NCBI RefSeq assembly: GCF_002980495.1
Contig: NZ_PVBR01000002.1
Coordinates: forward strand, 62,001-126,000
DNA length: 64,000 nucleotides
Direction of reading: 5' to 3'
DNA from: Phyllobacterium phragmitis
GTDB taxonomy: Bacteria; Pseudomonadota; Alphaproteobacteria; Rhizobiales; Rhizobiaceae
The first letter of the stretch is position 1, and the number at the start of each line of letters is the position of its first letter. The position numbers were made by a program, and so were the translations under genes. Shown here one piece after another: positions 3,154 to 25,962 of this stretch. Below the pieces are notes generated by a model. It was not told the origin of the DNA. It made no database searches and saw only the letters and a program-made list of their open reading frames with translations.

Positions 3154-3334
3154 TGTTCCTTGCACGTCAAATTTGCCGGTTTGCGACAGCTATTTCGCCG
3201 CACTTCCTTTTGGAATAATTCTATGGCTCAATAGTTTTTGGGTCTTAACTGCGCCTGAATCGCACTGAATCATGGTTCAGATGCGACAGAGTAGAGCATC
3301 GGGACAGCAGAACGGCAGCGGGAACTTGTCAGCC

Positions 3335-4333
3335 ATGAATCAGAAAACGCTTATCAAGCGCTCATTCGTCTTCTTTCTCGTTCCCGATTTTTCCATGATC
3401 GCCTTTGCGACGGCCATCGAGCCGCTGCGGATTGCCAACCGCATGCTCGGCTATAACGCCTATCACTGGCGTCTGGCATCAACAGACGGCAAGCCTGTCA
3501 CCGCATCCAATGGTGTCGAATGCGCCGTCACCTCCTCGCTCGAGGATGAGCGCCGCTTTTTGACCGGCGAGGAACGACCGTCGATGGTCTTCGTCTGTTC
3601 GGGCGTCCATGTCGAGAAATTCCAGAACAAATCGGCCTTCGCCTGGCTGCGTGAGGAGTTCAATCGTGGCGTGGCGGTCGGCGGTCTCTGCACGGGAGCC
3701 CATATTCTCGCCGCCGCAGGCCTCCTCTCCGGCAAGCGCTGCGCCATCCATTGGGAGAATTTGCCCGGCTTTGCCGAGACCTTCCCCAAGGCCGATGTCT
3801 ATGCCGATCTCTTCGAGGTCGATGGAAATATTCATACCTGCGCCGGCGGAACCGCGGCGCTCGACATGATGATCAAGCTCATCAGCGACGATTTCGACGA
3901 CAATCTCGTCAACCGGGTCTGCGAACAGGCCCTGACCGACCGGGTACGCAATCCGCATGATCGTCAGCGCCTGCCCTTGCGCGCCCGCCTCGGCGTACAG
4001 AACTCAAAGGTGCTGACCATCATCGAGCTGATGGAGGCGAGCCTGACCGAGCCCTTGTCTCTGATCGAGGTGGCGGATCACGTTGGCCTGTCGCGCCGCC
4101 AGATCGAGCGCCTGTTCCGCCAGGAAATGGGGCGGTCGCCGGCACGATATTATCTGGAAATCCGCCTCGATCGCGCCCGCCATCTGCTCATCCAGTCGTC
4201 CATGCCAGTGGTGGAAGTGGCAGTCGCCTGCGGCTTCGTCTCGGCATCGCATTTTTCCAAATGCTACCGCGAACTCTATGGACGTTCGCCGCAGCAGGAG
4301 CGCGCCGACCGCAAGCCACTCGTTGCAGCGTGA
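3335..4333 (+). CDS. GlxA/GbdR-type AraC family regulator
   Basis: The 332-aa regulator has an N-terminal DJ-1/PfpI-like amidotransferase-fold domain (about residues 8-190, with the GGLCTGAH nucleophile-elbow region) and a C-terminal AraC double helix-turn-helix (about 225-320, including VADHVGLSRRQIERLFRQ and CGFVSASHFSKCYRELYG). GbdR/CdhR proteins of this layout control glycine betaine, dimethylglycine or carnitine catabolism. A dimethylglycine dehydrogenase-like gene lies 1.1 kb downstream on the other strand, which fits that role. The frame is open from ATG 3272; I prefer 3335, where family homology starts (MNQKTLIKRSFVFFL). No strong ribosome-binding site settles the choice. Confidence 0.9.
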   Translation: MNQKTLIKRSFVFFLVPDFSMIAFATAIEPLRIANRMLGYNAYHWRLASTDGKPVTASNGVECAVTSSLEDERRFLTGEERPSMVFVCSGVHVEKFQNKSAFAWLREEFNRGVAVGGLCTGAHILAAAGLLSGKRCAIHWENLPGFAETFPKADVYADLFEVDGNIHTCAGGTAALDMMIKLISDDFDDNLVNRVCEQALTDRVRNPHDRQRLPLRARLGVQNSKVLTIIELMEASLTEPLSLIEVADHVGLSRRQIERLFRQEMGRSPARYYLEIRLDRARHLLIQSSMPVVEVAVACGFVSASHFSKCYRELYGRSPQQERADRKPLVAA

Positions 4334-5430: not shown

Positions 5431-7941
5431 TCAGGCCTTCAGACGCTCGTTTTCGGTATCGAACGGTGATTCGACGATGACGGTCGCCTTGTGCATCTTG
5501 CCGAGAATCCCGATCTCGAATTCGGTACCGGGCGCAGAGAATTCCGGCCTGACCATGGCAAGCGCAAGGCTCTTGCCCAGACGCCAGCCATAACTGCCAT
5601 GCGTCGCCCGGCCGATGAGCTTGCCCTCCTTGTAGATCGCTTCCGAGCCGCGCGCATCGGCATCGCCGATATCATGCACTTCAAGCGTCACGAAATTCCA
5701 GTTCAGCCCTTCCTCACGCGCCTTCACCACCGCGTCACGACCGATGAAATCGCCCTTGTTGGGATGCACGAAGCGGTCGAGACCGGATTCGTAGGCGTTG
5801 TATTCGATGGAAAGTTCGCGCGGGATCAGGCGATAGGATTTCTCCACCGCCATCGCCGTCATGGCGCGGATGCCGAATGGCTTGATGCCGAATTCCGCGC
5901 CCGCTTCCATCAGCAGATCGTAGATCGTGCTCTGCTGCTCGATCGGGTGATGCAGTTCCCAGCCAAGCTCACCGACGAAATTGACGCGCAGCGCGTGCGC
6001 GCTCGCCGGACCGACGCTGATTTGCCTGCCCGACAGCCACGGGAAATCCTCATTCGCCAAGCTCGTGCGGGTGAGCTTCTGCAACACCTTGCGGCTGTTC
6101 GGCCCGGCCAGCACCAAAACGCCGAACAGTTGCGTGATCGGCTTGAGCCTCACCGATCCGTCGGACGGCAGCAGCTTATAGAGATAATCATGGTCGTGGT
6201 TCTCAAAGGCGCCCGCCGAAACCAGATAGAACGAGCCCGGTTTCCATTCATAGACGGTGAACTCCGAGCGCACCCCGCCATTTTTCGTCAGAAGATGGCA
6301 AAGCGCGATGCGTCCCTGCTTCTTCGGGATACGGTTGGCGAGGATCGAGTCCAGCCACGCCCGCGCACCCGGACCTGAAACCTCCATCTTGGCGAAGGCC
6401 GACATGTCGAGAAGACCGACATTTTCGGTCACGTTCTTCACCTCGTTGCCGACATGCTCGAAATAATTCGAGCGGCGGAACGACCATACTTCCTTGACCT
6501 TGCCTTCCGCATCGGGCTTGGGGTGATTGTGGTTCATGAGCACGTCCGGCTTGTCGAGCGTGGCGACATCGATGCCATAGCCCTCGGGCGCGAACCAGTT
6601 GGCGCGCTCCCAGCCATAGACCGAGCCGAAAACGGCGCCGAGCGCCTTCTGGCGATCATAAGACGGCGAACGCTTCAAGGGCCGCGCCGCACCGCGCTCC
6701 TCGTCGGGATAATGCACCGAGAAGACCTCCGCATAGGCTTCCTCGTTCTTCTCTTTCAGATAACCCTCGGTCGCATAAGGGCCGAAGCGGCGCGGATCGA
6801 CACCCATCATGTCGATGGATGGCTCGCCCTCGACGATCCATTCCGCCAACTGCCAGCCGGCTCCGCCCGCCGCCGTCACGCCGAAGGAATGGCCTTCGTT
6901 GAGCCAGAAATTCTTCAGTCGCGGCGCCGGGCCGATGATCGGCGAACCATCCGGCGTATAGGCGATGGCACCGTTATACACCTTTTTGATGCCGACCTCG
7001 CCGAAGGCGGGAACGCGGGCAATGGCCGTTTCGATATAGGGCATCAGCCGCTCCAGATCCTCCTGGAACAGCTCGTACTCGCTCTGGTCGGAGGGCCCGT
7101 CGACATAGCAGACCGGCGCGCCCTTTTCATAGGGCCCGAGCAGCAACCCGCCATTTTCCTCGCGCATGTACCAGGAGGAATCGCTCTCGCGCAGCACGCC
7201 CATCTCGGGCAGGCCCTTGGCTTTGCGCTCCAGGATCGCCGAATGCGGCTCGGTGACGATGTACTGATGCTCCACCGGAATGACGGGAACGTCGAGGCCG
7301 ACCATCTGGCCGGTCTTGCGCGCGAAATTGCCGGTGGCGGAAATCACATGCTCGGCGAGGATATCGCCCTTGTCGGTCTTGACCAGCCATTGGCCATCCG
7401 GCTGCTGCTCGATGCCGGTCACCGCCGTGTGGCGATGAATAGTCGCGCCAAGATCGCGCGCGCCCTTGGCCAGCGCCTGCGTCAAATCCGCCGGCTGAAT
7501 ATAACCGTCATCCAGATGCTGGATCGCGCCCAGAACGCCGTCCATCTCGGCCAAAGGCCAGATTTCCTTGACCTCTTCAGGCGTCAGCAGCTTGACCGGC
7601 ACGCCGATCGTCTCCGCCACCCCGGCATAATACATATATTCGTCCCAGCGGTCCCTGGTGCGCGCCAGCCTGATATTGGTGCAATTGGTAAAACCGACAT
7701 TCATGCCGGTCTCCTCCTGCAATTCCTGATAGAACTTCACCGAATATTTGTGGATCTGGCCGACCGAATAGCTCATGTTGAACAGTGGCAGGAGACCCGC
7801 CGCGTGCCAGGTCGAGCCGGATGTGAGTTCCTTGCGCTCGATCAGGACGACGTCGCTCCAGCCCTTCTTCGCCAGATGGTAGAGCGTCGAAACGCCCACC
7901 ACACCGCCACCGATCACCACTGCACGGGCATGGGTCTTCAT
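5431..7941 (-). CDS. Dimethylglycine/sarcosine dehydrogenase-like flavoenzyme
   Basis: This 836-aa enzyme closely resembles mitochondrial dimethylglycine dehydrogenase in length and domain order. The FAD-binding oxidase domain (about 1-370) has the GGGVVG dinucleotide motif at residues 11-16, then GSTWHAAG, the region whose His I believe carries covalent FAD in the mammalian enzyme. An FAO_M linker (about 370-425, ending near FGPYATEGY) and GcvT plus GcvT_C folate-binding domains (about 430-815, with VGELGWELHHP) follow. It should demethylate N-methylglycines, passing formaldehyde to tetrahydrofolate. The start ATG 7941 has AGGGGA upstream. The GbdR-like regulator nearby supports a betaine-catabolism role (inference). 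Confidence 0.93.
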   Translation of the reverse strand: MKTHARAVVIGGGVVGVSTLYHLAKKGWSDVVLIERKELTSGSTWHAAGLLPLFNMSYSVGQIHKYSVKFYQELQEETGMNVGFTNCTNIRLARTRDRWDEYMYYAGVAETIGVPVKLLTPEEVKEIWPLAEMDGVLGAIQHLDDGYIQPADLTQALAKGARDLGATIHRHTAVTGIEQQPDGQWLVKTDKGDILAEHVISATGNFARKTGQMVGLDVPVIPVEHQYIVTEPHSAILERKAKGLPEMGVLRESDSSWYMREENGGLLLGPYEKGAPVCYVDGPSDQSEYELFQEDLERLMPYIETAIARVPAFGEVGIKKVYNGAIAYTPDGSPIIGPAPRLKNFWLNEGHSFGVTAAGGAGWQLAEWIVEGEPSIDMMGVDPRRFGPYATEGYLKEKNEEAYAEVFSVHYPDEERGAARPLKRSPSYDRQKALGAVFGSVYGWERANWFAPEGYGIDVATLDKPDVLMNHNHPKPDAEGKVKEVWSFRRSNYFEHVGNEVKNVTENVGLLDMSAFAKMEVSGPGARAWLDSILANRIPKKQGRIALCHLLTKNGGVRSEFTVYEWKPGSFYLVSAGAFENHDHDYLYKLLPSDGSVRLKPITQLFGVLVLAGPNSRKVLQKLTRTSLANEDFPWLSGRQISVGPASAHALRVNFVGELGWELHHPIEQQSTIYDLLMEAGAEFGIKPFGIRAMTAMAVEKSYRLIPRELSIEYNAYESGLDRFVHPNKGDFIGRDAVVKAREEGLNWNFVTLEVHDIGDADARGSEAIYKEGKLIGRATHGSYGWRLGKSLALAMVRPEFSAPGTEFEIGILGKMHKATVIVESPFDTENERLKA

Positions 7942-8113: not shown

Positions 8114-8419
8114 ATGACAATCTTCAAGCAGACCGCCACCTTTCAAAAGTGGTACCGGAAACTGAAGGACGCCAAAGCCAAAGCGGCGATTGTCCTGCGC
8201 CTTCAGCGGCTTGAAATCGGCAACCCGGGCGATGTCGCCCCGGTTGGTGAAGGCGTTAGCGAAATGCGCATTCATTATGGCCTCGGCTACCGCATCTATT
8301 TCCAACGTCGTGGCAACACCATCATCGTGCTTTTATGCGGCGGGGACAAAAGTACACAGGAAGCCGACATACGGACAGCGAAGCGCTTGGCCGCAGAATG
8401 GAGTGAAGACGATGGCTGA
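8114..8419 (+). CDS. RelE/HigB-like toxin (COG3657 type)
   Basis: A 101-aa basic protein with the compact RelE/ParE fold pattern of the addiction-module killer family: TFQKWYRKLKDAKAKAAI, RLQRLEIGNPGDV, GVSEMRIHYGLGYRIYF, then LLCGGDKSTQEADI. Members usually act as mRNA interferases or gyrase poisons; which applies here is unknown. It overlaps the antitoxin start by 8 bp, the toxin-first order typical of this subfamily. Confidence 0.9.
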   Translation: MTIFKQTATFQKWYRKLKDAKAKAAIVLRLQRLEIGNPGDVAPVGEGVSEMRIHYGLGYRIYFQRRGNTIIVLLCGGDKSTQEADIRTAKRLAAEWSEDDG

Positions 8420-8705
8420 AAAAATTTCCAATCTCGATCTGGCTGACATGCTCGATTCCGACGAAATTATTGAAGCATTCCTGACCGAAGCGATGGAATC
8501 GGGCGATGCAAAACTCATCGCAGCTTCCCTGGGTACTGTCGCCCGCGCCAAGGGCATGACCAACATTGCAAAAAAGACCGGACTGGCTCGCGAGCATCTT
8601 TATACCTCGCTCAGTGAAAACGGTAATCCGACCCTGGAAACCACATTGGCCGTCCTGAAAGCCCTCGGCTTTCATTTGGCCCCAAAGCACGACGCAACCG
8701 GCTGA
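8412..8705 (+). CDS. Antitoxin, HTH type (COG3636)
   Basis: The 97-aa partner of the preceding toxin starts at ATG 8412, inside the last codons of the toxin gene; the frame is open further upstream, but that part is toxin sequence. It carries a Cro/C1-like helix-turn-helix (about 50-90: MTNIAKKTGLAREHLYTSLS, then PTLETTLAVLKALGF), as in addiction-module antidote proteins. It should neutralise the toxin and repress the pair's promoter, which would lie in the 170-bp gap before 8114. Confidence 0.9.
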   Translation: MAEKISNLDLADMLDSDEIIEAFLTEAMESGDAKLIAASLGTVARAKGMTNIAKKTGLAREHLYTSLSENGNPTLETTLAVLKALGFHLAPKHDATG

Positions 8706-8818: not shown

Positions 8819-10555
8819 ATGACAGACATGCCGATTGAACAAACCGAGGGGAAGCGCGACGGCCGGCGGCCTTTCCTGCGTCGTATCGCAACGGCGCCGC
8901 TGGCGTGGCTCGCGCTCGTCCTCCTCTTGCTTTGCGTTCTCCTGAGCATCCGCCTCATCCTGCCGATCGGCGCGATGTACTGGGACACTTATATCTATTT
9001 CGATGCCGCGCAACGCATCTATAACGGCCAGATACCCAACACCGATTTCCTGACGCCGGTCGGGCCGCTCGACTATTATCTGTTCGCATTGGGGCTGAAA
9101 TTTTTCCCCAATGCCCAACCGCTTCTGCTCGCCCAATGGGTCATCCTGCTCGTCGCGGCACCGCTGATGGCGGCGATCATCGATGATGTCGCCCGCAAAG
9201 AGCGCCGTATCGCCTTTGCCCTGCTCATCCCTTTCCTGATATTCGCCATCTGCCCGGCCAATGTGCAGACATTCCATTCCTATCCCGGCCTGGATGGCTT
9301 CGGCATCTACAATCGCCATGCGACGCTGTTGCTCTACGTGCTGGTTTCCGCGCTGATGTTCGTGAAGGATGGCCGCAGGCTTGCCATCCTCTGCGGGCTG
9401 ACGATGCTGGCGCTCTTCCTCATCAAGGTCACCGGGTTTCTGGCGGGAGGGCTGATCGGTCTTCTGGCGCTTTTGTCCGGGCGCATTTCCTGGCGCAGCG
9501 TCGTGTTGGCGGGCGCGATATTCCTCGCCGCCCTCATCTGCCTGGAATTCAACGGGCACATGATAACAGCCTACATCGATGAGATCGCCTTGCTCATCCG
9601 CATGAATGAACAGGCGCTGCTGCCGCGCTTTCTGACGGTCCTCTCCACCGATCTCGATATCATCATGGCGAGCGGCATCCTCGTTCTCGCCCTCGCATGG
9701 ATGGGACGGGAGAAACTCCTCGCTGGCTTCTCTGCCAGCGCAGGCATCGCATCGACCCTGCTCGACAGCAATTTCGTCTGGCTGGCGGTCGCGCTTGTCG
9801 CCGGCATTTTCTTTGAAACGCAGAACACCGGCAGCCAGGATTTCACTTTCCTCTGGCCGATCCTTCTGGCGATCTTCATCCAGTCCGCGCACGAACCCGT
9901 CTCCCGACGAATTGCGATCGTGGTGCTGATCGGATTTGTCGCCATTCCCTATACGACCAAGATAGCCCACAAGACGCTGCGTGCCGTCGCCGTGTCACCG
10001 ACCTATGTCGCAGCGCCCGTGACGGATATGAAAACGCTGGGGCAGGTCTCCACGCGCTGGGACATCATGGAGCGCAGCCTGCTTATGGAAAAGCATTATT
10101 TGGAGCATGGCGATACCTATAGCGATCTCTCCAGTCAGGGTCAGCTCCCGAGTTGGCAGCTTTATTCCGAACTCGACTATCAGATGTACTGGATCATCTC
10201 GGCGGACGAAGCGGTCAAGGCCATCAGGCAGTTCGAGGCCACGAACGGCATTCACCTCGCCACCCTCATGAACCTCGATTTCGCCAACCCGTTTCCGTGG
10301 CTCCTCGACCGCGACGCGACGCGCCATATCCAGATCGGCGCCGATCCCTACCGAACCGTGCCGCCGCTCGACGACGCCACCAGGCAATCGATCGCTGAGA
10401 CCGATGCCGTGCTCGTCCCGCACTGCCCCCTGACCACCGGCCGCCGCGCGCTGCGCCGTATCTATGCCGACGCGCTGAAGGACCGGCAGGAGGTGAAACT
10501 CAACGATTGCTGGGATTTGTTGCTGCGGCCGGGAGTTCTCCCATCCTCCTCTTGA
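8819..10555 (+). CDS. Polytopic membrane protein, GT-C glycosyltransferase-like
   Basis: A 578-aa protein with about ten hydrophobic segments between residues 28 and 390 and a soluble C-terminal domain of about 190 residues. The first extracytoplasmic loop, YWDTYIYFDAAQRIYNGQ with PVGPLDYYLF after it, has the acidic-residue layout of GT-C enzymes that transfer sugars from polyprenyl-phosphate donors in the periplasm. I do not recognise a named family. It converges with the minus-strand locus of a polyprenyl-phosphate pentose-type pathway, whose product could be its donor (inference). Confidence 0.8.
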   Translation: MTDMPIEQTEGKRDGRRPFLRRIATAPLAWLALVLLLLCVLLSIRLILPIGAMYWDTYIYFDAAQRIYNGQIPNTDFLTPVGPLDYYLFALGLKFFPNAQPLLLAQWVILLVAAPLMAAIIDDVARKERRIAFALLIPFLIFAICPANVQTFHSYPGLDGFGIYNRHATLLLYVLVSALMFVKDGRRLAILCGLTMLALFLIKVTGFLAGGLIGLLALLSGRISWRSVVLAGAIFLAALICLEFNGHMITAYIDEIALLIRMNEQALLPRFLTVLSTDLDIIMASGILVLALAWMGREKLLAGFSASAGIASTLLDSNFVWLAVALVAGIFFETQNTGSQDFTFLWPILLAIFIQSAHEPVSRRIAIVVLIGFVAIPYTTKIAHKTLRAVAVSPTYVAAPVTDMKTLGQVSTRWDIMERSLLMEKHYLEHGDTYSDLSSQGQLPSWQLYSELDYQMYWIISADEAVKAIRQFEATNGIHLATLMNLDFANPFPWLLDRDATRHIQIGADPYRTVPPLDDATRQSIAETDAVLVPHCPLTTGRRALRRIYADALKDRQEVKLNDCWDLLLRPGVLPSSS

Positions 10556-10577
10556 TGGTGAAGGAAGGAAGTGCCCC

Positions 10578-12047
10578 CTACTTTACCTGCGCCTTGACGA
10601 AATCCCTGACGATCCGGACGATACCGCGAGACAATACCTCGTCGAGCGCCGCAATGAACTGGTCGACATGCGCTCGCTCGCAGATCAGCGGCGGCTCCAG
10701 CCTGACCACATTGCGGTTGTATTCGGTGAAGGCCACCAGCACCGCATGGTCGCGCAGGAGATGGCTGCCGATGAAGCCCGGCAGCGAGCCTTTCAACTTG
10801 TCGTCCAGCATCGCCAGGACTGGCCGCAACACGACGGGTACGGACTTGGAAAAATCGTGGAACTCGAGGCCGATCATCAGCCCCTGCCCGCGCACATCCT
10901 TGATCAGCGACGGATATTTCTCCTGCAGCACCTTCAACCGCTCGACGAGATAGTCTCCGACCGCAGCGGAATTGTCGATCAGGTGCTCGTCATAAAGCAC
11001 GTTCAGCGCTTCGATGGCCGTGATGCAGGCCTCGCCGATGCCGCCGAAGGTGGCCATGGCGTGGATCAGCGCCGTCTTCGGCGTTCCATAGGCCTTCATA
11101 TAGACCTCGCGCCTGGCGATCATCGCCGCCATGGCGGCCTTGCCGCCGCCGAGCGATTTCGCCAGCGCCGTCACGTCAGGCACGACGCCATAATGCTCGA
11201 AAGCATAGAATTTGCCTGACCGGCCAAGCCCGCACTGCACCTCGTCGGCCACCCACAAGACGCCGTAACGGTCGCAGAGCGCCCGCAGATTCTGCCAGAA
11301 TTCGGTCGGCGCGGTGATGATCCCCGCCCCGCCCTGGATGGTTTCAAGAACGATGACGCCGATCTCCGGATCGGATTTGAAGGCGTTCTCGATCGCCTCG
11401 ATATCGCCGAAGGGCACGCGCACCGTATTGCCGCTCAGCGTGAACTCGCCGCGGTAGAGCTTGCCGTCGGTGACGTTGAGCACGCCCTTGGTCTTGCCGT
11501 GGAACGAGTTCTCGGCATAGACGACTTTCGGACGCTTCGGCCCGGCGGCACGTTCGGCCACCTTCAGCGCCGCCTCCATCGCCTCCGAACCGGACGAGCC
11601 GAAGAACACCATATCGAGATCGCCGGGGCTGCAGGCAGCGATATTATGCGCCAGCGCCGCCGCATATTGCGACATGAAGGCCATCGCGATCTCGTGGCGC
11701 TTTTCCTCCTGGAAAGCCTGACGCGCCGCGAGGATGCGCGGGTGGTTGTGACCGAAGGCGAGCGAGCCGAAACCGCCGAAGAAATCAAGGATCTTCCGGC
11801 CGTTCTGGTCGATATAATACATGCCTTCGGCACGCTCGATCTTGATCTTGTTGAAGCCCAGCAGCTTCATGAAATGCAACTGGCCGGGATTGATATGGGC
11901 GGAGAAAAGCTCCGTCATCCGCGGCAGATCCATCGATTTCGCCTGCTCGACGGTCAGCAGATCCGGCTTCGCCGTCCCCCCGCTCATTGGCACCGCCGCA
12001 TGGATAATAGGCGCTTCTTTTTTCACAAATCCCACGGCCTTGGCCAT
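10578..12047 (-). CDS. Class III PLP-dependent aminotransferase
   Basis: The 489-aa enzyme has class III aminotransferase hallmarks: an N-terminal FFGGFGSLAFGHNHP segment, GSSGSEAMEAALK for cofactor phosphate binding, VADEVQCGLGRSGKF with the cofactor-binding Asp, and ALAKSLGGGKA with the Schiff-base lysine. It belongs with the 4-aminobutyrate/acetylornithine-like group; the amino acceptor cannot be read from sequence. It is the last gene of the minus-strand run and begins 16 bp after the epimerase gene ends. It may aminate a sugar or lipid intermediate of that pathway, or be an unrelated passenger. Confidence 0.9.
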   Translation of the reverse strand: MAKAVGFVKKEAPIIHAAVPMSGGTAKPDLLTVEQAKSMDLPRMTELFSAHINPGQLHFMKLLGFNKIKIERAEGMYYIDQNGRKILDFFGGFGSLAFGHNHPRILAARQAFQEEKRHEIAMAFMSQYAAALAHNIAACSPGDLDMVFFGSSGSEAMEAALKVAERAAGPKRPKVVYAENSFHGKTKGVLNVTDGKLYRGEFTLSGNTVRVPFGDIEAIENAFKSDPEIGVIVLETIQGGAGIITAPTEFWQNLRALCDRYGVLWVADEVQCGLGRSGKFYAFEHYGVVPDVTALAKSLGGGKAAMAAMIARREVYMKAYGTPKTALIHAMATFGGIGEACITAIEALNVLYDEHLIDNSAAVGDYLVERLKVLQEKYPSLIKDVRGQGLMIGLEFHDFSKSVPVVLRPVLAMLDDKLKGSLPGFIGSHLLRDHAVLVAFTEYNRNVVRLEPPLICERAHVDQFIAALDEVLSRGIVRIVRDFVKAQVK

Positions 12048-12063
12048 CGTTCTTCCCCCGTTG

Positions 12064-13074
12064 CTATTCCGCTGCGAGCGGCACCATCTGCGCCACCGGC
12101 TTGCCGTCCATCTTGTTGCGATATTCCTTGTAGGCGGCGACCAGCATGTCCTCGTCGCGGAATTTCGGCTTCCATCCGAAAGCCGCGAACGCGCGTGAAG
12201 TGTCCCTCACGCAATATTCGTCGGCGATCAGATATTGCTCGGGATCCATCAACGGTTTGTTGATGGCATCGAGCATTGCCAAGGCGCCCTTGACCGCCCA
12301 GGCGGGCGTCGGCAGCAGGATCGATTTCGACCCGGCCTGCTTGATCAATCCCCCCAGCAGCGCGCGCACCGAAGGCGGGTTGGAGGAGCCGAGATTATAA
12401 GCATCGTTCGGCACGCCATGCTCCCAGGCGAGACGCGCGATCTCCGCACAATCATAGACGGAAATGAACTGGTACGGGTTCTTGCCCGAGCCGATCATCG
12501 GCACCGGCAGATTATGATCGATCAGCTTGAACAGCTTTTCCAGAATGCCGAGACGGCCCGGGCCGATGATCAGCCGCGGGCGCATGATCGAGATGTTCAT
12601 GCCGCGCGTACGCCAATCGATGGCGAGCGCTTCGGTCGCAGCCTTGGACTTGCCATATTCGCCGAGCGGCGCGATCGGATGGTCCTCCGTCTGTGGCGAG
12701 ACGACGGTATTGCCATAGACCATATCGGTGGTGAACTGCACCAGCTTCGACGTTCCCGCCCGGTCCATGGCGCTCATGATATGAGCGGCGCCGTGATAGT
12801 TCACCGGCCAGAAGAACTCGTGGCGCTTGGCGCGAACCTGGATCGGCGAGAGCATCTTGGCCGCCAGATTATAGACCATATCGTCAGGCTTGAGACCGAC
12901 TGCGTTCACCTGCGCTTCGCTGGTCACGTCGCAATGGACGAACTTGGCCTTGCCATAGTGCGGCAGGTCGGTCTTGACGATATCGGCGACGACGACCTTT
13001 TCGCCTTGATTGACCAGATCGTTTGCCAGATAGCGGCCGACGAAACCGTCGCCGCCGAAAATGATATGTCGCAT
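12064..13074 (-). CDS. NAD-dependent epimerase/dehydratase (extended SDR)
   Basis: The 336-aa protein is an extended short-chain dehydrogenase. It has the nucleotide motif GGDGFVG at residues 7-13, the active-site TTDMVYG, and YGKSKAATE with the Tyr/Lys pair. The frame opens with TTG at 13107, but ATG 13074 is chosen because the Rossmann strand starts directly after it. Within this locus it could supply the reduction or epimerisation step that DprE2 performs in mycobacteria, although DprE2 is a classical, shorter SDR. It lies 42 bp behind the small transporter gene and 16 bp ahead of the aminotransferase. Confidence 0.9.
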   Translation of the reverse strand: MRHIIFGGDGFVGRYLANDLVNQGEKVVVADIVKTDLPHYGKAKFVHCDVTSEAQVNAVGLKPDDMVYNLAAKMLSPIQVRAKRHEFFWPVNYHGAAHIMSAMDRAGTSKLVQFTTDMVYGNTVVSPQTEDHPIAPLGEYGKSKAATEALAIDWRTRGMNISIMRPRLIIGPGRLGILEKLFKLIDHNLPVPMIGSGKNPYQFISVYDCAEIARLAWEHGVPNDAYNLGSSNPPSVRALLGGLIKQAGSKSILLPTPAWAVKGALAMLDAINKPLMDPEQYLIADEYCVRDTSRAFAAFGWKPKFRDEDMLVAAYKEYRNKMDGKPVAQMVPLAAE

Positions 13075-13116
13075 GTTTTTACCCGCTACCTTGGAATCAG
13101 GCCCCAATATCAGACC

Positions 13117-13545
13117 CTAGTATTTTGATTTTGAATCGATCTGCGCCGTCTCGCGAGATGCTGCCCCGCTTCCATGTCCGCTCTGTGCGATCAGCACCGT
13201 ACCGACGCAGATGAAGGCGATCCCGGCGATCTTCAACGCACCGAGATCCTCCTTGAAGACCGCCCATGCAAAAACGGCGACCGCCACATAGGCGAGGCTG
13301 AGAAACGGATAAGCGAAGGAAAGATCGACCTTCGAAAGCACGTAGAGATGCGATGCCATCGAGATGACGAAGACGGTGAGCCCAGCGAACACCCATGGGT
13401 TGAACAGGATCTGGAAAATGCGCTGGATCGCAGTGTCGGCGCTGAAGCTGATGGGACCGAGCGTGATCATGCCGTATTTGAGCATGATCTGTGCCGCGGC
13501 GTTGGTCATCACCGTGAACAAAATGAAAGGAATGTATTTCGTCAT
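13117..13545 (-). CDS. Small EamA/SMR-type membrane transporter
   Basis: The 142-aa protein has four predicted membrane helices (about 4-24, 45-67, 74-95 and 101-120), with the conserved Pro-rich helix VDLSFAYPFLSLAYVAVAVF. This is the size and pattern of ArnE/ArnF-like and EmrE-like drug/metabolite transporters. ArnE/F pairs flip undecaprenyl-phosphate-linked aminoarabinose, so a flippase for the polyprenyl-linked sugar made by the neighbouring enzymes is an attractive guess. It is the third gene of the minus-strand run, 160 bp behind the oxidase gene. Confidence 0.88.
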   Translation of the reverse strand: MTKYIPFILFTVMTNAAAQIMLKYGMITLGPISFSADTAIQRIFQILFNPWVFAGLTVFVISMASHLYVLSKVDLSFAYPFLSLAYVAVAVFAWAVFKEDLGALKIAGIAFICVGTVLIAQSGHGSGAASRETAQIDSKSKY

Positions 13546-13704
13546 CGTACCCTTGCCTTACCCGCCTTGGGCTGTTGATCGCCGCACGCTACGACCAGTG
13601 GCGGACCGTTACACCGAGCATGTTGAGAAGCCGCAAAGCACTTCCCTAAAATTCGAACCATCCGCAATTTTCGATTGCAATTGGTATTCTCATATATCTC
13701 CGGA

Positions 13705-15018
13705 TCAAACCAGCGTCAGCGCCGTTCTCTGCCAGAAATTCGAGGAGAACGCCGGATCACGATGCTCTTCAAGCTTTTTCCACTGAGGAAATGACGCAGC
13801 GAAGGTCGCCGCCGGCATCCTCTGGTCCTTATAGGGATTGACCCGCCCGCCAGCCGCGATCGTCAAGCGATCGAGTTCCGACAAAAGCGCCAATGTTCCC
13901 GCCCCCTTATTGGGAAAATCGAGCGTCAGAGTATAGCCCGGCTGCGGAAATGACAAAAGCCCCGGCGAGCCGGTCGTCCCGAACCGTTTCAGCACGGTCA
14001 GGAAAGACACCTGGCCCGCCTTGCGCGTTGCTTCGAGCATGGCCGGGATCGTATCCGGCGCTTGTGCATAAGGGATGACGCTCTGGTGCTGGTAGAGCCC
14101 CGCCGGACCATAGAGCCGGTTCCAGTCGCGTACGCTGTCGAGCGGATAGAAAAATTGTTCATATCCCGAGAGATGCTGCCCCGCGCCCCTTCCCTTCAAG
14201 TTCAGGTATGCGGCATTGAAAAGCGTCAGGCTCGCCCGGTTCAGCGCCGAAAAAGGCAATTCGAACGGCACACGCAGCCGCGTCGGTCGGGCATCGACGT
14301 TGAAATTGCCGTTCCCCGCATGATTACCGGTCAGGAGCAGGCCACGCCCGGCGCGCCGTCCCCCGGCGATCTGGTCGATCCAGGCGACCGCATATTCGTT
14401 CTCCTCATCAGCCTTTTCGGCGAGCGCGAAGAATTGATCCAGATCGGCAAACCGCGTGATCCGTTCCTCGACATCGAGCGATGCGACACGCATCAGCCTG
14501 ATCCGGGCCGTCACGATCAAGCCGGTCAGCCCCATTCCGCCGATAGTCGCTGCAAAAAGCGCCTGGTTCTTGAGCGGCGAACAACTGACCGTCCTTCCGT
14601 CCGAACGCGACAACGCGAATGAAACCACATGGCGGCCGAATGTGCCGCGCCGATGATGGTTCTTGCCGTGCACGTCATTGGCGATGGCGCCGCCCAGCGT
14701 GACGAAGCGCGTACCTGGCGTTACGGCTGGAAAATAACCATGCGGCGCGGCGAAGGCGATGATCTCGGCCAGAAGCACGCCGGCCTCGGCATCGAGAATG
14801 CCGCTTGCCGCATCGAACCCCAATATCCGAGCTTTCCGGCGCATCTCGACCAGCGATCCGCGATCATTGTGACAGCTGTCGCCATAGGATCGGCCATTGC
14901 CGAAGCCGAGGAAAGCGCCCGCACCGACCGGGCCGTTTTGCAGCGACCGCTCGGCATCAGCAAATGAAACCGCCCTTCGCGGCTTTCGCTCTATGCGGCC
15001 GAAGCTCTCGAACGACAT
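13705..15018 (-). CDS. DprE1-like FAD-dependent oxidase
   Basis: The 437-aa flavoprotein aligns end to end with mycobacterial DprE1 (decaprenylphosphoryl-ribose 2'-oxidase). Conserved are the PP-loop GNGRSYGDS, PGTRFVTLGGAIA, HGKNHHRRGTFG (containing the His next to FAD), NRLYGPAGL, and the catalytic Lys at about residue 397 (NPYKDQR). DprE1 oxidises C2 of polyprenyl-phosphoryl ribose on the way to the arabinose donor. The cysteine hit by benzothiazinone inhibitors (Cys387 in M. tuberculosis) aligns with Thr at about residue 365 (GYTLTLDFP). Its ATG overlaps the stop of the HAD-UbiA gene (TGATG), implying coupled translation. Confidence 0.92.
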   Translation of the reverse strand: MSFESFGRIERKPRRAVSFADAERSLQNGPVGAGAFLGFGNGRSYGDSCHNDRGSLVEMRRKARILGFDAASGILDAEAGVLLAEIIAFAAPHGYFPAVTPGTRFVTLGGAIANDVHGKNHHRRGTFGRHVVSFALSRSDGRTVSCSPLKNQALFAATIGGMGLTGLIVTARIRLMRVASLDVEERITRFADLDQFFALAEKADEENEYAVAWIDQIAGGRRAGRGLLLTGNHAGNGNFNVDARPTRLRVPFELPFSALNRASLTLFNAAYLNLKGRGAGQHLSGYEQFFYPLDSVRDWNRLYGPAGLYQHQSVIPYAQAPDTIPAMLEATRKAGQVSFLTVLKRFGTTGSPGLLSFPQPGYTLTLDFPNKGAGTLALLSELDRLTIAAGGRVNPYKDQRMPAATFAASFPQWKKLEEHRDPAFSSNFWQRTALTLV

Positions 15019-16469
15019 CAGCGCATGCCCGCCGTCATCAGCATCACACCGCCAAGCAGGATCATCATGATGCTGCGCCAGTCGCTGAGGAGGAACACCA
15101 CGGGATCGTCATGCATCTGGTCGCGATGCGCCAGTATCCATATACGCAGATTGATGTAGAGCACGATCGGGCAAAGCGGCCAAATCATCCAGGGATAGGC
15201 ATAGAGCGTCCTGACGGAATCGCTGTCGATATAAAGCGCCAGAACCATGACCGCGCCGAATGCCGAGGCCACGCCGCTCTGGGCGATGACTTCGCGATCA
15301 TGGCCGAGATAGCCCCTGCCGGCGAGTTTCTCGTTCTCCTCCGGCGGCGCGTTGCGCAACTCGACATAGCGCTTGACCAGTGCCAGCGACAGGAAGAAGA
15401 AGATCGAGAAAGACAGGAGCCAGAATGAGCCGGGCGTCGCGTTGGCGGCGGCGCCGGCGAGCAGCCGCACCGTGTAGAGCCCCGCCAGCACCAACACATC
15501 GATAAGCAGCATCCGCTTCAATGCCGCGGAATAGGCTGTCGTGACGAACAGATAAAGCGTCAGGACCAGCATATATTCGGTCGGCAGTAGGGCAGCGACG
15601 CCATAGGCGAGCGCCAGCAGTGCGCCGGACGCACAAACGCCAAACCACACTGGCAGTTCACCACTGGCGAACGGCCTCTTCTTCTTGCGGGCGTGGCGCC
15701 GGTCGAGTTGCAGGTCGAACAGATCGTTGACGATATAGATGGACGATGCGGCCGCACAGAAGGAGATGAAGGCGAGAAAGGTTCGCCCGAAGACATCGTG
15801 ATAAAGAATGTCGTGGGCCAGGATGGCCGGGACGAAGACCAGCGTGTTCTTCATCCATTGATGGACGCGAAGCATTCTTAAATAGCTGGCGAACCGCACG
15901 CGCGGCGCGGCGAAGAACGCATCGCCATCACTGCCCGGATTATGCTTCCGTCGCCAGGCCCGCACGGCCCGGTCAGGCGCGACGACGATGGCTTTCCGTG
16001 CCTCGTCGAAAATGGCGATATCGGCACGTGAATTGCCGGCATAGTCGAACCCGTCCTCGCCGAAGGCCTCGACCAGCATCTTCAGCTTCGCTTTCGAGGC
16101 AAGATTCCGGTAGCGGTCCGTCGAATACACCGCATCGAAAATGCCGAGGTGCTTCGCAACCGCCTCGGCGAAGGGTGTGGCAGCGGCGGTTGCGAGAACC
16201 AGCCTGCGCCCCTCCGCATGTTCCTTCTTCAGGAATGCCAGAAATTCAGGCCGGTAGGGCAGTGTCGCGGCATCGACCGTGACGCGCTCGGCTATTTCAT
16301 GTTTCAGCCGCGCCTTGCCCTGCAACGCCCATATCGGCAGCAGAAAGACAAACAGAAAGTTCTTTTTCAGAAGCAGGAAGATGCCTTCCCACAAAAGATC
16401 CGTGGCAATCAACGTGCCGTCGAGATCGACGGCCAAAGGTACGTTCTTATTGGTCTTGCGCGCAGCCAT
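15018..16469 (-). CDS. HAD phosphatase-UbiA prenyltransferase fusion
   Basis: A 483-aa two-domain protein. Residues about 1-200 form a HAD-type hydrolase: DLDGTL near residue 15, ATAAATPF as motif II, then a SKAKLK lysine and AGNSRADIAIF. Residues about 205-483 form a UbiA-family integral membrane transferase with NDLFDLQLDRR and a later KRYVELR, like DPPR synthase (Rv3806c), which transfers phosphoribose from PRPP to decaprenyl phosphate. The HAD half could remove the 5'-phosphate that a separate phosphatase removes in mycobacteria (inference). It is the first gene of the run. The natural substrate is not proved by sequence. Confidence 0.9.
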   Translation of the reverse strand: MAARKTNKNVPLAVDLDGTLIATDLLWEGIFLLLKKNFLFVFLLPIWALQGKARLKHEIAERVTVDAATLPYRPEFLAFLKKEHAEGRRLVLATAAATPFAEAVAKHLGIFDAVYSTDRYRNLASKAKLKMLVEAFGEDGFDYAGNSRADIAIFDEARKAIVVAPDRAVRAWRRKHNPGSDGDAFFAAPRVRFASYLRMLRVHQWMKNTLVFVPAILAHDILYHDVFGRTFLAFISFCAAASSIYIVNDLFDLQLDRRHARKKKRPFASGELPVWFGVCASGALLALAYGVAALLPTEYMLVLTLYLFVTTAYSAALKRMLLIDVLVLAGLYTVRLLAGAAANATPGSFWLLSFSIFFFLSLALVKRYVELRNAPPEENEKLAGRGYLGHDREVIAQSGVASAFGAVMVLALYIDSDSVRTLYAYPWMIWPLCPIVLYINLRIWILAHRDQMHDDPVVFLLSDWRSIMMILLGGVMLMTAGMR

Positions 16470-25005: not shown

Positions 25006-25962
25006 ATGAAGCTTAAAGATTACATATGGCCAATCGTCGGCGTCATCGCGGTCCTTGTTTCGGCATGGCTGCTCTACAAGGAGCTGCGCAGCATATCGCT
25101 CGAAGATGTAATCCACAGCCTTGATGCCATCAGCCTGCATCGCTGGTTGCTGGCCGGTGCCTCGGCGATGCTGTCCTATGTCGCGCTCGCCGGTTATGAC
25201 CGCATTGCGCTGCTGCACCTGAAGAAGACCATCTCCTGGGTGTTCATCACGCTGAGTTCCTTCACGACCTACGCGCTGTCGCACAATATCGGTGCCTCCG
25301 TTGTTTCAGGGGCGGTCGTGCGCTACCGCGCCTATAGCTCACAGGGGCTGACCGGCAGCGAAGTGGCGGTTCTCGTCGCCTTCTGCTCCTTCACCTTCGT
25401 CCTCGGAACAACGATCCTGAGCGGCATCGTCCTCCTCATCGAGCCCGATATCCTGCAGCGCTTTAACGACGAGATCCCCACACATCTGGCGGTCGGGCTC
25501 GGGCTCTTGATGATCCTTCTGGTGCTGCTCTATGTCTTCGGCAGTTGGCTGCAATTGCGCCCGCTGGTCATCGGCAAATTCCGGCTGGAATATCCGCGCC
25601 TCAATCTGGTCTGGCAGCAGCTTCTGATCGCACCGCTCGAACTGATCGGCGCCGCCGGCATCATCTATTTCGCCCTGCCAGAGGCAGGCAATCCGGGCTT
25701 TCTCATCGTGCTCGGCATCTTCCTCGTGTCGTTTTCCGCAGCCCTCATCTCGCATGCGCCCGGGGGCTTGGGCGTTCTCGAGATTGTTTTCCTGACCGGA
25801 CTGCCCGACATGAATCAGGCCGACGTGCTGGCGGCACTGATCGTTTTCCGCCTGCTCTATCTGCTAATCCCCTTCGCGATTTCGCTGTTCATCGTACTGA
25901 TCTTCGAAAAGACCCAGTTCGCGCTGCGCTGGCGGGAAAAGGACAAGCAGCCGGATCAATAA
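25006..25962 (+). CDS. UPF0104 (YbhN/LPG synthase TM-like) protein
   Basis: The 318-aa protein has about eight hydrophobic segments and matches the lysylphosphatidylglycerol synthase transmembrane/flippase family (YbhN, UPF0104). Typical motifs are SYVALAGYDRIALLHL near residue 63, HNIGASVVSGAVVRYRAYSS, and SHAPGGLGVLEIVFL near residue 245. It lacks the aminoacyl-transferase domain of MprF, so lipid modification is unlikely; a lipid-transport role is plausible. It starts 51 bp after the antiporter gene. Confidence 0.88.
   Translation: MKLKDYIWPIVGVIAVLVSAWLLYKELRSISLEDVIHSLDAISLHRWLLAGASAMLSYVALAGYDRIALLHLKKTISWVFITLSSFTTYALSHNIGASVVSGAVVRYRAYSSQGLTGSEVAVLVAFCSFTFVLGTTILSGIVLLIEPDILQRFNDEIPTHLAVGLGLLMILLVLLYVFGSWLQLRPLVIGKFRLEYPRLNLVWQQLLIAPLELIGAAGIIYFALPEAGNPGFLIVLGIFLVSFSAALISHAPGGLGVLEIVFLTGLPDMNQADVLAALIVFRLLYLLIPFAISLFIVLIFEKTQFALRWREKDKQPDQ

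Follow-up and report, generated by a model that had tools for sequence, protein, structure and literature searches.

In the mycobacterial decaprenylphosphoryl-arabinose pathway, DprE2 is the arabinose-making reductase and acts on the 2-keto sugar supplied by DprE1. An amino pentose, 4-amino-4-deoxy-L-arabinose, is put on lipid A by ArnB, ArnE/F and ArnT of the Arn pathway. A lipid-linked pentofuranose route has been published for Citrobacter and discussed for Pseudomonas, in a paper whose pentofuranose side chains depend on HAD-UbiA fusions, flippases and GT-C transferases, with DprE1/DprE2 homologs for arabinose (PMC11127046). For Azorhizobium Nod factors, a lipid-linked pentose route has been proposed (PMC2443382). 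Here we describe a locus of Phyllobacterium phragmitis, lying in a stretch of 64,000 nucleotides (contig NZ_PVBR01000002.1, positions 62,001 to 126,000; hereafter the window), in which a DprE1-like oxidase stands beside a class III aminotransferase (AT). The locus probably encodes a lipid-linked amino-pentose pathway in which the AT replaces DprE2. A first-pass annotation of the window had headlined a lipid-linked pentose pathway outside Actinobacteria; given the above reports, the new part is the AT variant, the start of the pathway being already known outside that group. No report of a DprE1 plus aminotransferase variant or of a surface amino-pentofuranose was found in the open-access literature, as judged from search listings and the openings of abstracts, a scope outside which most subscription journals fall, and the word "aminotransferase" is absent from the main text of PMC11127046.

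The AT is tied to DprE1 across genomes. In an order sample of 297 genomes (AT called at E<=1e-130, DprE1 at E<=1e-50), we identified the AT in 14 and DprE1 in 44, and all 14 AT genomes have DprE1 (hypergeometric 3e-13, uncorrected for kinship). The two genes need not be neighbors: in genome G654 they are on different contigs, and in Hoeflea olei, two Bosea and one genome with a cut contig the AT is on another stretch than the AT-less DprE1 locus that was fetched. Twelve genomes from a named set of loci (see below) were searched for the AT; four carry it off-locus, four were confirmed to have it in the locus, and four do not have it, these being two with DprE2 and two Sinorhizobium/Ensifer with a lone DprE1. 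In a class sample of 385 genomes (AT at E<=1e-130, DprE1 at E<=1e-60), DprE1 occurs in 44 and the AT in two, the window's genome and G205, an AT-carrying genome from another order.

Where the AT is present, DprE2 is missing. Regions were compared in a set of 46 stretches, made up of the DprE1 regions of 43 other order-sample genomes, the AT stretch of G654, and stretches of G610 and G205. The profile for DprE2-type short-chain dehydrogenases/reductases (SDRs) was built from three plasmid loci and cut at >=200 bits, with no scores between 218 and 103 bits. DprE1 is present in 44 stretches; 13 of these have the AT and none of the 13 a DprE2-type SDR, which is found in 28 of the 31 DprE1 loci without AT. 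The three AT-less exceptions are G654 (AT elsewhere), G425 (DprE2 elsewhere) and G586 (neither, and a long branch). G425 keeps the HAD-UbiA fusion (the fusion), DprE1, an ArnE/ArnF-like transporter (SMR), the extended SDR of the window (henceforth SDR) and the GT-C gene without the AT. Counted per genome, DprE2 occurs in 0/14 AT-carrying and 29/30 AT-less DprE1 genomes (Fisher 1e-10, uncorrected for kinship), scored genome-wide for the former and within the fetched stretch for most of the latter. A genome-wide search with NF053786 (E<=1e-45; curated cut-off 250 bits) likewise returned no DprE2 in the 15 AT-carrying genomes (14 from the order sample plus G205) and recovered it in 8/10 AT-less DprE1 genomes; of the other two, G602 was missed but is positive by the other profile, and G586 has none. 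Among 41 DprE1 loci fetched from the class sample (leaving out the window's genome, G361 and G205), the AT occurs in none and DprE2 in 38 at >=150 bits or 35 at >=200 bits; of the three without DprE2, two have the most distant DprE1s and the third is close to the end of its contig.

The window's genome itself (5.6 Mb, 139 contigs) has no DprE2 above the cut-off, the best match reaching 81 of 250 bits. Arabinose, the headline product of the first-pass annotation, is not supported, given this absence here and in the AT-carrying genomes, and its hedge, an amino variant, is the product now predicted, favored by the exclusion of DprE2 by the AT. The AT, which the annotation had noted, together with the extended SDR, as lacking a mycobacterial counterpart, turns out to be the key to the locus.

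The gene layout is conserved. The named set holds 80 DprE1 loci, the best 80 of 582 relatives and so biased to near kin, and 71 of them carry AT, SDR and SMR beside DprE1, for which reason we do not regard the layout as chance. The other nine comprise one with AT alone, one whose cut contig shows SDR and SMR, two with DprE2, and five with neither AT nor DprE2. The closest named DprE1 among the listed relatives, from which own or near-kin records were possibly excluded, is that of Phyllobacterium myrsinacearum (67%). Median identity in the 71 full loci is 78% for AT, 71% for SDR, 70% for SMR, 60% for DprE1, 56% for the fusion and 44% for GT-C; the AT is most and the GT-C least conserved, as expected with a fixed donor and a varying acceptor. 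A recognizable GT-C copy occurs in 30 of the 71, and the remaining loci may use another transferase. Among the fetched loci, 85 combine AT with DprE1; 83 of these contain SMR (71/72 named, 12/13 of the 46-stretch set; missing in L076 and L169) and 82 SDR (missing in L076, L167 and L169). Each of the three SDR-less loci encodes a large membrane protein close by; in L076 and L169 it passes the PMT_2 cut-off of Pfam, and in L167 no Pfam family matches it. Transporter type shifts with the pathway in the 46-stretch set, SMR occurring in 12/13 AT versus 0/28 DprE2 loci, and GtrA in 0/13 versus 18/28. In one locus, L021, the fusion, SDR/AT and GT-C genes are split into several overlapping open reading frames, perhaps through assembly errors.

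In the window, five co-directional genes run from 16469 down to 10578 and a sixth faces them (Table 1); the start of the DprE1-like gene overlaps the stop codon of the fusion gene. A scan for promoters and terminators stayed at the level of shuffled sequence (promoters 3 vs 3.0, terminators 9 vs 7.7). All six genes named in the first-pass annotation are in place, and profile or fold matches confirm their families.

Table 1. Genes of the locus, with positions in the window.
Gene product	Position	Strand	Predicted role or basis of assignment
Facing GT-C-type membrane protein, 578 aa	8819..10555	+	Predicted transferase attaching sugar outside the inner membrane
Class III aminotransferase (AT), 489 aa	10578..12047	-	Proposed amination of the 2-keto sugar in place of DprE2 reduction
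Extended SDR, GalE/ORF13-type, 336 aa from ATG	12064..13074	-	Possible C3 epimerase of lipid-linked pentose
SMR/EamA-type four-helix protein, ArnE/ArnF-like, 142 aa	13117..13545	-	Predicted flippase for lipid-linked sugar
DprE1-like FAD oxidase, 437 aa	13705..15018	-	Predicted C2 oxidase of polyprenyl-phosphoryl pentose
HAD phosphatase-UbiA fusion, 483 aa	15018..16469	-	Pfam/NCBIfam profiles, structure match, motifs, tree

The UbiA protein had been read as DPPR synthase-like, and its identity stands, while an N-terminal HAD phosphatase domain (PF12710, E 5.4e-12) had been overlooked. The solved M. tuberculosis DPPR synthase 8j8j matches residues 189-374 (E 1.4e-26). Among NCBIfam models, the generic PRK08238 "UbiA family prenyltransferase" scores highest (631 bits against a cut-off of 351); the decaprenyl-phosphate phosphoribosyltransferase models, which describe mycobacterial equivalogs, score 111-147 bits, under their cut-offs, and the proteobacterial UbiA quinone model scores 31 bits. 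The protein has a DLD motif at residues 15-17, N248, D249, D252 and D256 in NDLFDLQLD, and R367 and E370 in KRYVEL (counted by eye), within the NDxxDxxxD and R/E motifs of such synthases. Placement with quinone or heme enzymes in a tree had been named as grounds for abandoning the assignment; instead, the fusion clusters with UbiA proteins of DprE1 loci and not with the three further UbiA proteins of its genome, which are long branches. On model scores and tree we reject a quinone or heme prenyltransferase, and the fusion is predicted to be a polyprenyl-phosphate phosphoribosyltransferase with a built-in 5'-phosphatase.

The oxidase, a FAD_binding_4 protein, is collinear with solved DprE1 over most of its length (E 1.3e-65), as first annotated. 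The NCBIfam DprE1 model NF053785 scores 334 bits over residues 39-422, short of the curated equivalog cut-off (500 bits), making it a relative and not a mycobacterial-type equivalog. It retains an HGKNHH segment and the lysine K397, which aligns with what is presumably the catalytic Lys418 of DprE1; where Thr365 stands, the solved protein has the NICVDF cysteine, which we take to be Cys387. At residues 365, 394 and 396, 56 of 89 aligned rows have Thr/Asn/Tyr, typical of AT-type DprE1s, and 25 have Ala/Tyr/Ala, found mostly in the DprE2 type; three AT systems (Methyloprofundus L076, G541 and G205) carry the DprE2-type residues. The shifted residues possibly reflect an altered substrate shape. 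As a marker for the AT this signature was rejected, as it follows the DprE1 clade and not the AT. Lone DprE1 relatives in Sinorhizobium meliloti Ak57 (L093, 9986-11311) and S. psoraleae (L071, 9947-11308) have the conserved lysine replaced and may serve another purpose; the pSymB label of the S. meliloti record is possibly mistaken, since the record is 3.7 Mb long and includes thrS, parE and eno.

The AT belongs to PF00202 (E 2.1e-86), and its pyridoxal phosphate lysine K297 and D268 are invariant in 16/16 aligned rows. The closest solved chain is 4ppm, listed as "Aminotransferase" and presumably PigE; PigE is also the closest NCBIfam model (351 bits, cut-off 850). The structure model of the AT is poor (pLDDT 67.8) and was not used. 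The extended SDR, also recognized in the first pass, matches PF01370 (E 3.4e-35) and has a GGDGFVG segment and a YGKSK motif, with Y139 and K143 invariant in 14/14 rows. In locus L200, the SDR occurs with HAD-UbiA and SMR and no DprE1, and nothing in its genome, G610, matches DprE1 at E<=1e-50. Since this arrangement resembles that around the Citrobacter ribo-to-xylo epimerase ORF13 (PMC11127046), our guess is that the SDR epimerizes the lipid-linked pentose at C3. A plasmid of Azospirillum sp. B510 also carries a related extended SDR (44%; L211, 8998-9963); glycosyltransferases, a hypothetical protein and a membrane protein of LPG-synthase type are encoded near it, and the annotation of that stretch shows no DprE1.

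The flippase-like and GT-C-like proteins of the first annotation hold up as well. The SMR protein matches EamA (PF00892, E 1e-6) and stays below the curated cut-offs of ArnF (55.9/99 bits) and ArnE (38.2/92 bits), being related without being a member. The facing protein has no match in Pfam or NCBIfam; its predicted structure (pLDDT 91.4) resembles ArnT (5ezm, E 1.1e-6, TM 0.36) and AftA (8if8, TM 0.47, E 3.7e-3) in Foldseek. D56 and D62 are invariant in 28/28 rows, and the protein thus combines a GT-C fold with a conserved acidic residue after the first helix. The profile made for it also picks up membrane proteins annotated as hypothetical and encoded next to DprE1/DprE2, in R. leguminosarum (56-67 bits) and two other genomes. 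By sequence and fold, the locus brings together a lipid-donor synthase, a flippase and a GT-C transferase, the three components of the pentofuranose systems of PMC11127046.

From this gene content we infer a pathway that begins like the mycobacterial one, as first annotated. Its first steps, formation of a polyprenyl-phosphoryl ribose and oxidation at C2, are well supported predictions because the fusion and the oxidase are homologous to DPPR synthase and DprE1. The DprE1-like enzyme would oxidize C2 to the ketone, and the AT, judging from its co-occurrence with DprE1 and mutual exclusion with DprE2, would add an amino group there instead of the DprE2 reduction, giving polyprenyl-phosphoryl 2-amino-2-deoxypentofuranose. 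The SDR might invert C3 before or between these steps, so that a xylo or lyxo product is conceivable. The fold and neighborhood suggest that the ArnF-like protein flips the lipid and that the ArnT/AftA-like GT-C moves the sugar to a surface polymer or lipid. More broadly, we lean towards the view that Rhizobiales and some other bacteria make this undescribed lipid by the exchange of DprE2 for the AT and that its sugar ends up on a surface glycan; the sugar would be of xylo or lyxo form where the SDR is present and of ribo or arabino form where it is not.

Replacement of DprE2 by the AT is the simplest account of the locus, and several observations weigh against it. Outside the control genome, no DprE2 match reaches the curated 250 bits (0/25 genomes, best 206), and "DprE2" in these proteobacteria is therefore assigned by similarity and position only. 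Neither AT nor DprE2 is nearby in the five named loci mentioned above (AT elsewhere in three of these genomes, not in two), in G586 and in three class-sample loci. On a DprE1 tree built by a quick method (130 sequences, 89 after reduction at 80% identity), the AT/DprE2 label changes three times by locus and four times by genome. Good anecdotal support for the exchange comes from G205, where an AT stands with a DprE1 placed inside the DprE2 type, and from G425, where the DprE1 falls in the AT type and DprE2 is present; with so few independent swaps, kinship could explain part of the statistics, and a paired test had three informative pairs, all opposite (p = 0.25). The active-site residues are shifted in most AT-type DprE1s, and the oxidized position could differ. 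The nearest named relatives of the AT are PigE and putrescine aminotransferase, and aldehydes are the commoner substrates of class III aminotransferases.

These last points lend themselves to a different chemistry, in which the SDR or a shifted DprE1 oxidizes C3 or C5 and the AT aminates there to give a 3- or 5-amino pentose lipid. The altered residues and the acceptance of aldehydes by class III aminotransferases agree with it, yet the DprE1s of the AT systems in Methyloprofundus L076, G541 and G205 keep the DprE2-type residues, and the AT is found without the SDR; we consider it quite improbable. The SDR could also be thought to stand in for DprE2, leading to ordinary polyprenyl-phosphoryl arabinose while the AT acts elsewhere, for example on the acceptor. 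It does have an NAD site and YxxxK, and is present in nearly all of the fetched AT plus DprE1 loci, as counted above. Against this, G425 carries both SDR and DprE2; the AT occurs without SDR in G541 and G563 (none genome-wide at E<=1e-70) and on the L076 contig; the SDR accompanies fusion and SMR in L200, where DprE1 is missing; and the absence of DprE2 is tracked by the AT, not by the SDR. On the evidence of G425 and the SDR-free AT loci we reject the SDR as the DprE2 substitute, and the explanation as a whole is unlikely. That the AT is a neighbor with an unrelated amino-acid or amine role, co-inherited by chance, would fit its kinship to general omega-aminotransferases; given its co-occurrence with DprE1 in 14/14 genomes, unlinked cases included, and its exclusion of DprE2, we regard this as very unlikely.

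If the replacement of DprE2 by the AT is correct, the DprE1 pathway, known for arabinose and as a tuberculosis drug target, gains an amino-sugar branch, and an enzyme other than DprE2 can draw on the keto intermediate left by DprE1. Plant- and soil-associated bacteria would then be expected to carry a surface amino-pentofuranose, and gene content would offer a simple rule, AT for amino sugar and DprE2 for arabinose.

Several neighboring genes were also noted. Directly before the GT-C gene there is a toxin-antidote pair (8114-8705, +; RelE/ParE-type TIGR02683, 137 bits, and TIGR02684, 109 bits). The gene at 25006-25962 (+), whose product resembles MprF in its flippase half (193 bits, cut-off 600), adjoins a YbaL-type antiporter and a SecDF gene. 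An FAD oxidoreductase fused to a glycine-cleavage T-like domain (5431-7941, -) and a GbdR-like regulator (3272-4333; 358 bits, cut-off 480) perhaps belong to methylamine or choline metabolism.

Compared with described systems, the locus shares with the mycobacterial pathway (Rv3806c, Rv3807c, DprE1, DprE2, Rv3789) the phosphoribosyl pyrophosphate (PRPP)-dependent UbiA transferase and the DprE1-type oxidase; it differs in that the HAD phosphatase is fused to the transferase, no DprE2 was found, and AT and SDR are added. The mycobacterial pathway also has a small membrane exporter, Rv3789, placed in the SMR family by PMC11127046 and likened here by description, and downstream GT-C transferases. 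The Citrobacter youngae O1/O2 system (ORF12-15) has in common the HAD-UbiA fusion, whose motif residues named for ORF15 agree with those of the window, an EmrE/ArnE-like transporter and a GT-C transferase, and its GalE-like SDR ORF13 (ribo to xylo) parallels the window's SDR by description; no DprE1 or aminotransferase is described for it in the text consulted, and its transferase is GT136 (PMC11127046). In Azorhizobium, noeC, noeH and noeO of noeCHOP (Nod factor arabinosylation) were likened by their authors to mycobacterial arabinosylation proteins, and can be likened to the window by description; the proposed product is a D-arabinose precursor, unlike that predicted for the locus (PMC2443382). 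A plasmid locus of R. leguminosarum (L095, UbiA-GtrA-DprE1-DprE2) shares HAD-UbiA, DprE1 and membrane proteins found by the GT-C profile, but has DprE2 and GtrA, and no AT, SMR or SDR in the stretch. The Arn pathway is alike in outline, with a lipid-linked amino pentose, an ArnF-like flippase and an ArnT-like GT-C; the window departs from it by starting from PRPP on the lipid, by a class III rather than ArnB-type aminotransferase, and by the predicted position of the nitrogen at C2.

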